NCBI GenBank assembly: GCA_030654175.1
Contig: JAURXZ010000001.1
Span: 1 to 64,000, forward strand
DNA from: Bacteroidia bacterium
GTDB lineage: Bacteria > Bacteroidota > Bacteroidia > 2-12-FULL-35-15
Direction of reading: 5' to 3'
DNA: 64,000 nucleotides
Shown: positions 26,476 through 57,666 of the stretch, in pieces
Position numbering within the stretch: position 1 is the stretch's first letter
Layout: each line of letters begins with the position of its first letter
Made by a program: the position numbers and the translations under genes
Notes under the pieces: model-generated
Database searches by the model: none
What the model was told of the DNA's origin: nothing
The model's input: the letters and a program-made list of their open reading frames with translations, nothing else

Positions 26476-26578
26476 TATTTAAGTTTTAATTTTGTTTTAA
26501 AATTTTAATTCTTATTTAGTTACTTCTCACCACACAGATTTCATGAAGATTAATCCCTCAGAAAATATTTCCTACGTG

Positions 26579-27022
26579 TTAACCTTTGGGCAACTTTACA
26601 AACTCTTCTGTAACAATTGACACTAAACGTTCTTTAATGTTTTCACAATGAAAATTTATCAGAAGTCCTTTGGGTTTTCCTGTAAGTTTCAAATTCGTTA
26701 ACAGTTGCGCTTTGTATAACGGAATCATCTTTTCTAAGGCTTTCCCTTCAACAATCACTAAATCGTTTACGAGTAAATGAAGTTTTAAACTTCCTCCTAA
26801 ATCTTTTCCTTTATAGTGCACAGGAACATCTATTTGCGACTTTACAAGCAATCCGGCAGTCCTCATTTCATCAATGAAACAAGACTCATAAACCGATTCG
26901 ATCAATCCGGTACCAATATGTTTGTGAACTTCAATAGCACAACAAATTATCGTGTATGAAATTTCATTTATATATTTTTGAGTAATCTTTTCCGTGTTAC
27001 AATGCGTTATCTGTGTCTCCAT
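26579..27022 (-). CDS. GxxExxY family protein
   Basis: The product has 147 residues. The name-giving motif is visible as GTGLIESVY (near residue 38), followed by a conserved core with V-HYKGKDLG, LIVEGKALE and LINFH. The family is common in Bacteroidota and was first noticed as an element inserted in 23S rRNA genes of Leptospira. Its fold is PD-(D/E)XK-like and its function is not established. It stands alone here, with gaps of about 100 and 39 bases to its neighbours. Confidence 0.85.
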   Translation of the reverse strand: METQITHCNTEKITQKYINEISYTIICCAIEVHKHIGTGLIESVYESCFIDEMRTAGLLVKSQIDVPVHYKGKDLGGSLKLHLLVNDLVIVEGKALEKMIPLYKAQLLTNLKLTGKPKGLLINFHCENIKERLVSIVTEEFVKLPKG

Positions 27023-27061: not shown

Positions 27062-27826
27062 CTATTTAATTTCGCCTCCTTTCTTTTTAAAACCCAATAG
27101 ATAGCTTACCTGTAGGCCATACAATATGTTTTTCCCTTGTATTCCATTCATCTCCATAACACCTCCGAATACACTTTTAAAACCGGAATTCGCCAATAGC
27201 TGAACTTGTAAAACATCTTTGCTAAAAACTGGCAAATCAATACCGATACCTGCAAAAGCTCCCCAATCCATCATTTGCATATCATCCATAATATTTACAG
27301 CATTGTAGCTATTCACACGGTAGGCATTAATCAGCGTGTGTTGTGAACCACCAAGTGAGAAAAACAATTTTGATTTACCAATTAACTCCTTTGTCCTGTA
27401 TTTTGCTCCCAACAGTATATCAATGTAGGAGAAACGATAACGGGGGCTGTAATCCGCCATATCCATATCGAACTTAGAGCCCCTTTGCATATAGCCGGCA
27501 TTGAGTGTTATTCCGATTTTTTCATTCAGCAAATATTCGGAACGAAGTCCTGTGCCTCCGCTCAATTTTAATCCGTATTCAATCATTGGCGCACCTGATG
27601 TCATTGTATTCCCAGCCATAGTCATTTTATTGCCATACATACTGCTTGCTCCGAAAGAGTAATACTGGCCGAACATAAATTTTGATTGTGCGGAAGAAAT
27701 AATAGGCAATAGGCAACAGGCAATTAGCAACAGGCAATAAGCAATTGGCGATTGGCAATGGGATAAGAGCAAGGAACAATCTTTTATTTTTGCATATTGC
27801 AAATTGCTTATTGTTTTTGTTTTCAT
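27062..27826 (-). CDS. Outer-membrane beta-barrel protein with repeat-expanded signal peptide
   Basis: The product has 254 residues. The mature part (after ISSAQ, about residue 48) alternates hydrophobic beta strands and ends in LLGFKKKGGEIK; it resembles small outer-membrane barrels. It lies 17 bases downstream of the multicopper oxidase at 27844-29340 and may cooperate with it. The signal region is abnormally long (~47 residues) and contains LLLSHCQ, SPIAYCL, LLIACCL and LPIISSA, a 7-residue period encoded by a heptanucleotide repeat. The original signal peptide was presumably shorter and the repeat was captured in frame. Whether export still works is an open question. Confidence 0.7.
   Translation of the reverse strand: MKTKTISNLQYAKIKDCSLLLSHCQSPIAYCLLLIACCLLPIISSAQSKFMFGQYYSFGASSMYGNKMTMAGNTMTSGAPMIEYGLKLSGGTGLRSEYLLNEKIGITLNAGYMQRGSKFDMDMADYSPRYRFSYIDILLGAKYRTKELIGKSKLFFSLGGSQHTLINAYRVNSYNAVNIMDDMQMMDWGAFAGIGIDLPVFSKDVLQVQLLANSGFKSVFGGVMEMNGIQGKNILYGLQVSYLLGFKKKGGEIK
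27701..27777 (-). repeat. Eleven degenerate heptanucleotide repeats within a signal-peptide coding region
   Basis: On the plus strand the units are AATAGGC, AATAGGC, AACAGGC, AATTAGC, AACAGGC, AATAAGC, AATTGGC, GATTGGC, AATGGGA, TAAGAGC, AAGGAAC, back to back. Since 7 is not a multiple of 3, the encoded peptide repeats every 7 residues. Related heptamer runs occur in the intergenic DNA at 35637-35671 and, more weakly, at 57616-57644. They recall the short tandem heptamer repeats (STRR) described in cyanobacteria, but no link is shown here. Confidence 0.8.
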
Positions 27827-27843
27827 AATTTGATTTTATTAGT

Positions 27844-29340
27844 TTAACTGATTTTAAAATTTAACATCATACCGCTGTCTTCATGCTCAAGGTTATGGCA
27901 ATGCAACACAAACTTTCCTTTGTTTTGTGGGAAGGTCATAATTACTCTTACCTTTTCCTGTGGCATAACCAGCACAGTATCTTTCCACCCTTTCTCTGTG
28001 GCAATAAGTGTATTTCTTCCGCCTGTTCTGTCCAATACCTGAAACTGAACCCCGTGAATGTGCATCGGATGAATTTCATCACCCATTGAATTATCAAACA
28101 CCCATATTTCTGTTGAACCTGCGGTTACTTCTTCGTCAATCCTGTTTATATCGTATGATTTGCCGTTTATAGTGTGCATACCCGCCATTGAACCCATGTT
28201 TCCCATTCCTCCCATATTCCCCATACTTCCCATATCCATTCCTGCAATATCAAATGTGCGGGTTTTGCTTGCAGATGTTTGCGGTATAGGATTAATTACA
28301 GAAAGAGTTGCAGGAACAGTGAAGGGGGTTGTTTCACTCTTGGAAACCGTAAATTTCATTATCTGAAATGACTGAGTTCCCTGAACAACTCCATTGCTGA
28401 ATGTGTTACTTTGCAAGTATATTTCAGTACCAAGAGAATAATTTGAAAAGTTGACTAAAATATCAGCCCTTTCTCCGGGCGCGAGCAACAAGCTGTTTAC
28501 ACTTTCTGAAGTGTTCAGCAAACCACCATCTGCCCCAATCACATAAAAGCTGGCACTATCGCTTAACGCAAGATTGTATATCCTGGCTGTTGAACCATTC
28601 AGCACTCTCATACGATAGAAACGTTTAGCCACATTGCTATAAGGAGCATACACACCATTCACCAATACATACTGGCCAAAATAACCAGTCATAACTTCGC
28701 CACTAGTTGGAGAGTAATTCAGACTGTAATCGGAATAAATTCTTTTATCCTGGATCACCAAAGGAATTTCATAATCATTATCGGGTAAATTCAAACTGGC
28801 CTCTTCAGCATCATTAACGATGAACATTCCGGCCAGTCCCATAAACACCTGGTGCGAAGTTTTTCCGTGTGGATGTGGATGATACCAGTATGTACCGGCT
28901 CTCTGATTAATTTGAAAATTAAAATTAAAAGAGCTTCCCGCCTGAACTATATTTTCAGGATGTCCATCCATACTAGCAGGAATAAGCAAACCATGCCAAT
29001 GTATATTTGTTTCTTCTGATAAACTATTTTGAAAAGTGATGTTTGCATTTTCACCATTCATCATTTTAATGGTTGGCCCGAGAATACTTTCATGGTATCC
29101 GAATACCCTTGTCGTTTTTCCATTTAGTATGGATGCGGTTGTTGATTTGGCTGTAAGGGATGGGTTTTTCACAATAGCAGGAATAGGCAAAGGGGTATCA
29201 AAAGATCCTTCTAAAACGGATACACTTTTACCCATGTCCATTTTATCTTTTTTACAGCTTTGTAATAGCCAGCCAATACCACCAATAGCGGTGAATGCGG
29301 TTGTAGTACTGGCCAGTTTAAGAAAATGTCTTCTTCGCAT
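27844..29340 (-). CDS. Multicopper oxidase (CueO/CotA-like), Tat-type lipoprotein signal
   Basis: The product has 498 residues. The N-terminus has a twin-Arg-like MRRRHFLK, a hydrophobic stretch, and Cys29 in LLQSC, so it may be a Tat-exported lipoprotein. All four copper ligand motifs are present: HWHG (114-117), HPHPHG (154-159), HPMHIHG and HCHNLEHEDSGM at the C-terminus. A short Met/Gly loop (GMDMGSMGNMGGMGNMGSMA) precedes the third motif, as in copper-handling oxidases. Predicted role: Cu(I) oxidation in the periplasm. It is independent of the oxidase at 4869-7265, lacks the CopB-like tail, and is followed by a barrel protein. A receiver gene lies only 9 bases upstream. Confidence 0.88.
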   Translation of the reverse strand: MRRRHFLKLASTTTAFTAIGGIGWLLQSCKKDKMDMGKSVSVLEGSFDTPLPIPAIVKNPSLTAKSTTASILNGKTTRVFGYHESILGPTIKMMNGENANITFQNSLSEETNIHWHGLLIPASMDGHPENIVQAGSSFNFNFQINQRAGTYWYHPHPHGKTSHQVFMGLAGMFIVNDAEEASLNLPDNDYEIPLVIQDKRIYSDYSLNYSPTSGEVMTGYFGQYVLVNGVYAPYSNVAKRFYRMRVLNGSTARIYNLALSDSASFYVIGADGGLLNTSESVNSLLLAPGERADILVNFSNYSLGTEIYLQSNTFSNGVVQGTQSFQIMKFTVSKSETTPFTVPATLSVINPIPQTSASKTRTFDIAGMDMGSMGNMGGMGNMGSMAGMHTINGKSYDINRIDEEVTAGSTEIWVFDNSMGDEIHPMHIHGVQFQVLDRTGGRNTLIATEKGWKDTVLVMPQEKVRVIMTFPQNKGKFVLHCHNLEHEDSGMMLNFKIS

Positions 29341-35636: not shown

Positions 35637-35671
35637 TTGCCTTTTGCTAATTGCTTATTGTCTATTGATTA
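35637..35671. repeat. Intergenic heptanucleotide repeat run
   Basis: Five contiguous heptamers read TTGCCTT, TTGCTAA, TTGCTTA, TTGTCTA, TTGATTA on the plus strand. Taken as reverse complements they match the GGCAATA-type units at 27701-27777. The run lies between the PagL-like gene and the PepSY-like gene, within otherwise featureless A+T-rich DNA. Confidence 0.7.
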
Positions 35672-57515: not shown

Positions 57516-57613
57516 CTGAAAATGATTACACCGATTATTAAAATGATTACACCAATATTGTTTTTTGTTGAAAATGATTACACCGATTATAAAATAATTA
57601 CACCAGTATTGTT
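57516..57613. repeat. Tandem/dispersed ~21-base repeat upstream of a small gene
   Basis: Four units of AAAATGATTACACCRATTAT start at about 57519, 57540, 57571 and 57591, some spaced by TTGTTTTTTGTTG-like bases. The 18 bases 57514-57531 are identical to 54951-54968 inside the SPFH gene. At 57616-57644 a weak heptamer run (TTGCCTA, TTACATA, TTACTTC) follows. Confidence 0.75.
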
Positions 57614-57666
57614 TGTTGTTTAATTGCCTATTACATATTACTTCATTTTTATTTCCCTGTTATATT

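Follow-up and report, generated by a model that had tools for sequence, protein, structure and literature searches.

Inverted heptanucleotide arrays form a palindrome within the signal-peptide codons of a Bacteroidia outer-membrane protein gene

Results

The window, by which we mean the whole 64,000-nucleotide stretch of Bacteroidia DNA analysed here, carries on its minus strand an open reading frame of 254 aa (27062-27826) that translation, orthologues and a match to the Pfam family OMP_b-brl_2 (E 4.5e-9) identify as the gene of an outer-membrane beta-barrel protein (OMP). This frame starts 17 bases past a multicopper oxidase gene, also on the minus strand (27844-29340), which lies directly upstream and whose pairing with the OMP gene is preserved in the relatives L072, L073 and L074. 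Together with CusA, CusB-like and TolC-like proteins and a heavy-metal-binding lipoprotein, the multicopper oxidase makes up a metal-efflux set extending across 26 kb of the window (16264-42473).

Inside the OMP gene, and in frame with it as an earlier note on this DNA had proposed, is a degenerate array of period 7 at 27701-27759/27762, to which TRF assigns 8.4 copies with 75 % matches. The unit reads AAYWRGC on the plus strand and GCYWRTT on the coding strand, where eight successive units match GCYWRTT with one mismatch in total. Pattern search and unit counting place 8-9 degenerate heptamers at 27701-27762; the earlier figure of eleven at 27701-27777 was too high, the fit to the unit being lost over 27763-27777. 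Because 7 is coprime to 3, the encoded peptide also repeats every seven residues, a period already noticed from the translation, and the C-rich coding strand specifies SHCQSPIAYCLLLIACCLLP, the hydrophobic core of the signal peptide. The longest perfect tract in the array is 16 bp.

The array has an inverted counterpart that the earlier note overlooked. An inverted-repeat search places a second, purine-rich arm at 27787-27813 (minus strand), with pattern matches at 27792 and 27799, and the two arms of 24 nt are 83 % complementary across a loop of 24-31 nt (27763-27786, minus strand) that holds no ORF. Along the coding strand the order is thus ATG, purine-rich arm CAATAAGCAATTTGCAATATGCAAAAA, loop and C-rich arm, with the 5′ arm encoding the hydrophilic n-region and both arms falling within codons 1-42. 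The window feature is therefore a palindrome, or hairpin, made of heptamers and more than a simple tandem repeat. As RNA it folds modestly better than shuffled sequences, with a z of -1.4 and 18 of 200 shuffles equally good.

The signal peptide of the OMP is predicted to span 46 residues (27689-27826, minus strand), with cleavage between SSA and Q suggested by the Ala-Gln motif and by alignment to orthologues. A search of 148 relatives returned orthologues at 47 % (L072), 38 % (L073), 37 % (L074) and 32 % (L075) identity, all belonging to other families of the class; repeat-derived peptides of other genomes were also matched. Since the signals of L072, L073 and L075 are repeat-free and run to 19 residues before the Ala-Gln site (MKNIFVILPMIVITLFSKA followed by Q, and similar) versus 46 here, this comparison marks the repeat as derived, having added about 27 residues. 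The earlier estimate of a signal of about 47 residues, roughly twice the normal length, therefore holds, and a repetitive N-terminus with unrelated codons was not seen in the three orthologues. No close relative carries the OMP gene, so an empty site for the window insertion is not available. Nor did a translation start downstream of the repeat emerge: the first in-frame ATG past the array is residue 51, beyond the cleavage site, and a protein begun there would lack a signal altogether. An in-frame TTG inside the n-region may serve as an alternative start. We infer that the predicted 46-residue signal works and is cut at the proposed site.

To place the array in its genomic setting we used an 864-kb sample, taken as stretches, out of 5.1 Mb, together with pattern counts over the whole genome. 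The sample holds 18 period-7 arrays with a score of at least 14, versus 0 in order-2 Markov simulations. In addition, five 16-base windows match GCAAYWRGCAAYWRGC exactly at the 27701-27762 array and no other site in the 64 kb window does; the array is thus not a product of chance. The whole-genome heptamer count that had been suggested as a check gave 115+105 matches versus 52+40 for the reversed pattern at 3 mismatches, a setting too permissive for the count to tell much alone. Units differ across the genome (TTTAAAG, CTTGATT, GATGCAA, GTTGGTA and others), and what is dispersed is therefore a class of 7-bp arrays and not a single sequence. The claim of a dispersed repeat that entered a gene stands in this amended form, the three orthologues read being free of the repeat. 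Among 25 arrays of the sample, 11 are intergenic, 6 lie at ORF edges and 8 fall within ORFs; coding sequence makes up 86 % of the sample, so non-genic DNA holds more than its share of arrays. A clear inverted partner accompanies seven of the 25.

Two intergenic copies had been reported for the window. The one at 35637-35671 (minus strand) is genuine but degenerate, with 1-2 mismatches per 16 bases in the pattern search and no inverted partner found. The one at 57616-57644, with 3 mismatches per 16 bases, was dropped as chance-level (30 such matches in the whole window versus 17.5 expected).

Which strand is read appears to decide where an array is found in a protein. In the 864 kb sample, arrays read on the C-rich strand all lie in signal peptides, namely those of the window OMP, a PorP/SprF-like protein (L068) and a secreted protein (L050), whereas arrays read on the G-rich strand are internal and hydrophilic, in TilS, MutS, MurC and two other proteins. 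The sample is small, with signal peptides in 3/3 C-rich versus 0/5 G-rich cases. The names TilS, MutS, MurC and PorP/SprF are putative assignments from sequence. In TilS (L058, 6349-7779) the array forms an in-frame linker, and the protein is about 28 residues longer than all aligned congeners except its nearest relative. In that relative (G017) two deletions, of 14 and 7 bp, remove whole heptamers and jointly keep the frame. The idea that copy number may also change at the window array is supported by analogy only with these TilS differences. MutS (L046, 8006-10750) likewise has an in-frame heptamer linker. MurC failed as a second insertion case, its heptamer stretch bringing no net insertion and its loop being no longer than those of congeners; not every coding array is thus an insert.

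Such arrays are widespread. Of 395 genomes of the class, 43 yielded arrays when searched with the peptide (LPIAYCL)n, and a scan at the DNA level revealed arrays in many cyanobacteria, in Bacteroidota and scattered through other phyla. In-frame captures recur in signal peptides: the lipoprotein signal of G056 contains 12 units, the TolC-like signals of G193 and G027 are captures as well, and in a cyanobacterial signal (L163) an array with a hydrophilic reading is followed by one with a hydrophobic reading.

The metal-efflux operon of G056 (L236) offers a direct comparison with that of G038 (L267), which is without these repeats although the CusA proteins are 93 % identical. Compared with G038, G056 carries extra DNA: CusA itself contains 135 additional bp, a length divisible by three, a further 149 bp follow tolC, 249 bp cover the lipoprotein's start and signal, and 496 bp are added between the lipoprotein and CusA. 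The 135-bp insert, an internal heptamer palindrome of this CusA-type transporter, folds strongly (z -3.9 versus shuffles). The 496-bp insert is a PF05635 (23S_rRNA_IVP, hereafter IVP) gene, with a weaker bAvd match too, flanked by inverted heptamer arms, and its predicted fold is a long stem whose loop contains the ORF (z -4.0 versus shuffles). One operon thus shows empty sites for both IVP-bearing and ORF-less heptamer hairpins. Start codons in G056 have arms on either side. The CusB-like signal of G056, considered as a further capture, was rejected, there being no length gain versus G038. Most heptamer captures observed in G056 are carried by the metal-efflux gene set.

We then surveyed the flanks of IVP genes in 24 genomes, nearly all picked for carrying such arrays, counting any period-7 array within 200 bp. 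Arrays flank 20 of 29 IVP genes (10 on both sides), compared with 0/27 PDDEXK_3 genes and 2/30 response regulators of the same genomes. Flanking arrays also occur at 13 of 15 IVP loci in cyanobacteria that carry heptamers, 10 of these loci having arrays on each side, and at 8 of 13 loci in additional Bacteroidota. The signal is local to the gene, with arrays in 65/112 adjoining flanks versus 2-5/111 from 200 bp outwards. When the two flanks of the same IVP gene are compared, one is an inverted copy of the other in 31/55 cases versus 9/432 mismatched pairs, and the unit varies between loci. Among genomes mostly not picked for arrays, an inverted score of at least 16 was reached at 13/28 IVP loci, and in the present genome matched inverted arms occur at four of five IVP genes. 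Period-7 arrays are thus strongly associated with IVP genes in Bacteroidota and cyanobacteria. IVP genes are present in 301 of the 395 class genomes and in 41 of the 43 array genomes; they are also common among genomes without GCAATAG-type arrays, and most arrays are not adjacent to an IVP gene.

In several genera an IVP gene sits between fadJ-like and thiolase genes (G000:C27 around 411600; L391-L406, L279 and L280), with arms of heptamer style and drifting sequence. Arms at this site are alike across genera, and matching there is thus less sharp, at 8/12 for same-locus versus 41/132 for cross-locus pairs. Some IVP genes (L283, L284, L287, L293 and L483) are flanked instead by arrays of period 8, 9 or longer.

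Discussion

Heptanucleotide repeats are known as the STRRs of cyanobacteria, as TAACTGA and other 7-bp repeats of Bacteroidetes and Beggiatoaceae (PMC4679880), and as GGGNATC repeats of Xanthomonas and Nostoc (PMC4692102). The window array resembles them in its degenerate 7-bp tandem units, its dispersed class and the phyla it shares; the known repeats are mostly intergenic, whereas the window array is palindromic and in frame within a signal peptide. The intervening sequences (IVS) of 23S rRNA are a second point of reference, with inverted ends, an S23/IVP ORF and a link to RNase III (PMC4990558). The elements described here share with IVS the inverted ends forming a stem, an IVP-family ORF in the loop or none, and a sporadic distribution. 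Unlike IVS they lie outside rRNA, in operons and protein genes, and their stems consist of heptamers. The window feature itself has inverted ends capable of forming a stem and is located in a protein gene and not in 23S rRNA; because its loop has no IVP/S23 ORF, we do not class it as a classical IVP-bearing IVS.

The window palindrome also invites comparison with Rickettsia palindromic elements. These palindromic repeats, which form families with conserved sequence, are found as in-frame insertions in genes for proteins of diverse function. Like them, the window palindrome is in frame within a gene and absent from orthologues; unlike in those families, the unit sequence varies freely between arrays, the sole constants being the 7-bp period and the inversion. 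The term itself is found in PMC2635572. Heptamer repeats, IVS and Rickettsia palindromic elements are thus already known. The open-licence literature that we searched yielded no prior report connecting heptamer arrays to IVP genes or to signal peptides, and both links appear unreported there.

What we observed directly at the window feature is a pair of inverted arms lying in frame, and a repeat that the three orthologues read do not have. The explanation that we favor, at a probability of roughly 60 %, is that a palindromic element with heptamer arms entered the 5′ end of the OMP gene, and that it is one of a set of stand-alone IVS-like hairpins whose ORF-less members have repeatedly been captured into proteins. 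A short palindrome with stem arms of degenerate 7-bp tandem arrays would have been inserted as a unit in this lineage. Its strand asymmetry, together with a net length that preserved the reading frame, is the probable reason why it was retained. Along the mRNA the purine-rich arm would give a hydrophilic stretch and the C-rich arm (LPIAYCL)n, the two together mimicking the n- and h-regions of a signal, after which signal peptidase would cleave behind SSA. The element would belong to the large class of 7-bp arrays of Bacteroidota and cyanobacteria, those of cyanobacteria being the STRRs, and the class would comprise stand-alone IVS-like hairpins either with IVP in the loop or, as in the window, without an ORF. 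The window palindrome would then be an ORF-less relative of the IVP elements, which presumably spread by or with IVP. Weighing against this explanation are the modest fold and IVP-free loop of the window palindrome, the small share of sampled arrays with a clear inverted partner, the position of most arrays away from IVP genes, the unavailable empty site, the absence of a net insertion in MurC and the frequency of IVP in genomes lacking GCAATAG-type arrays.

Local slippage offers an improbable alternative origin, in which a chance heptamer among the signal codons expanded in place, with no insertion, and the hydrophobic reading made the expansion harmless. In many bacterial genomes heptamers, for which slippage has been proposed (cited in PMC4679880 and PMC4692102), outnumber every other kind of long simple repeat, TilS displays indels of whole heptamers, and many arrays here are without an inverted partner. 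Slippage cannot, however, produce the inverted second arm of the window array or the matched inverted arms around IVP genes, and it fails to explain how palindromes came to stand at several sites of one operon at once when a relative is clean.

A further account, which we consider quite unlikely, holds that the inverted arms are an RNA structure over the gene start that tunes translation or mRNA stability, the encoded peptide being incidental. Its appeal is that the 5′ arm starts 13 nt past the start codon and is able to pair with the 3′ arm, that arms in G056 flank start codons, and that a clustering of TAACTGA heptamers ahead of start codons is known from elsewhere (PMC4679880). The predicted fold is nevertheless weak, being equalled by the 18 shuffles mentioned above, equivalent palindromes lie deep in CusA, far from any start, and the structure is absent in orthologues. 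A phase-variation switch, in which frequent change of heptamer copy number toggles the protein by frame, was rejected as the main reading and is very improbable: gain or loss of one or two heptamers would indeed shift the frame of this predicted surface protein, and a simple repeat close to an N-terminus is in many cases a contingency locus (PMC4692102), but units matching at about 75 % and a perfect tract of only 16 bp speak against fast switching. Like contingency loci, the window repeat is tandem, near the N-terminus of a surface protein, with a copy number that affects the frame; unlike them it is palindromic, too degenerate for frequent slippage and devoid of a long perfect tract.

Beyond the insertion of a palindromic element in this one gene, we tentatively suggest a broader possibility, which we hold somewhat less likely than not: the heptamer repeats found in cyanobacteria and Bacteroidota would be stems belonging to a widespread class of hairpins amplified by or with an IVP/bAvd-like four-helix-bundle protein. 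Copies without an ORF would spread through genomes and steadily seed new signal peptides and linkers, because an array specifies a signal-peptide core when read on one strand and a charged linker when read on the other. If true, this would connect the source of the heptamer STRRs of both groups with what the orphan IVP/S23 four-helix-bundle family does outside rRNA, and it would provide a recurring route from non-coding repeats to new signal peptides or linkers. It would also be a warning for annotation, since long LPIAYC-like N-termini in these phyla would be repeat-derived.

Additional observations in the window

A GxxExxY gene (26579-27022) lies just downstream of the OMP gene. Genes of this kind (PF13366) were ruled out as partners of heptamer arrays (0/27). 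As a family (TIGR04256/PDDEXK_3; L301-L330) they have matched inverted arms of their own in 12/27 cases (score of at least 16), with different motifs (CACAGAG.., ACAGGATT.., CGCAAAG..) about 8-10 bp apart, as if belonging to a separate hairpin element. The copy in the window has no convincing matched arms (score 10), with CACCACACAGATTTCATGA near 26528 as a possible remnant. At 57517-57620, directly upstream of a minus-strand reading frame, the window also holds a 51-bp repeat in two copies that are 92 % alike.
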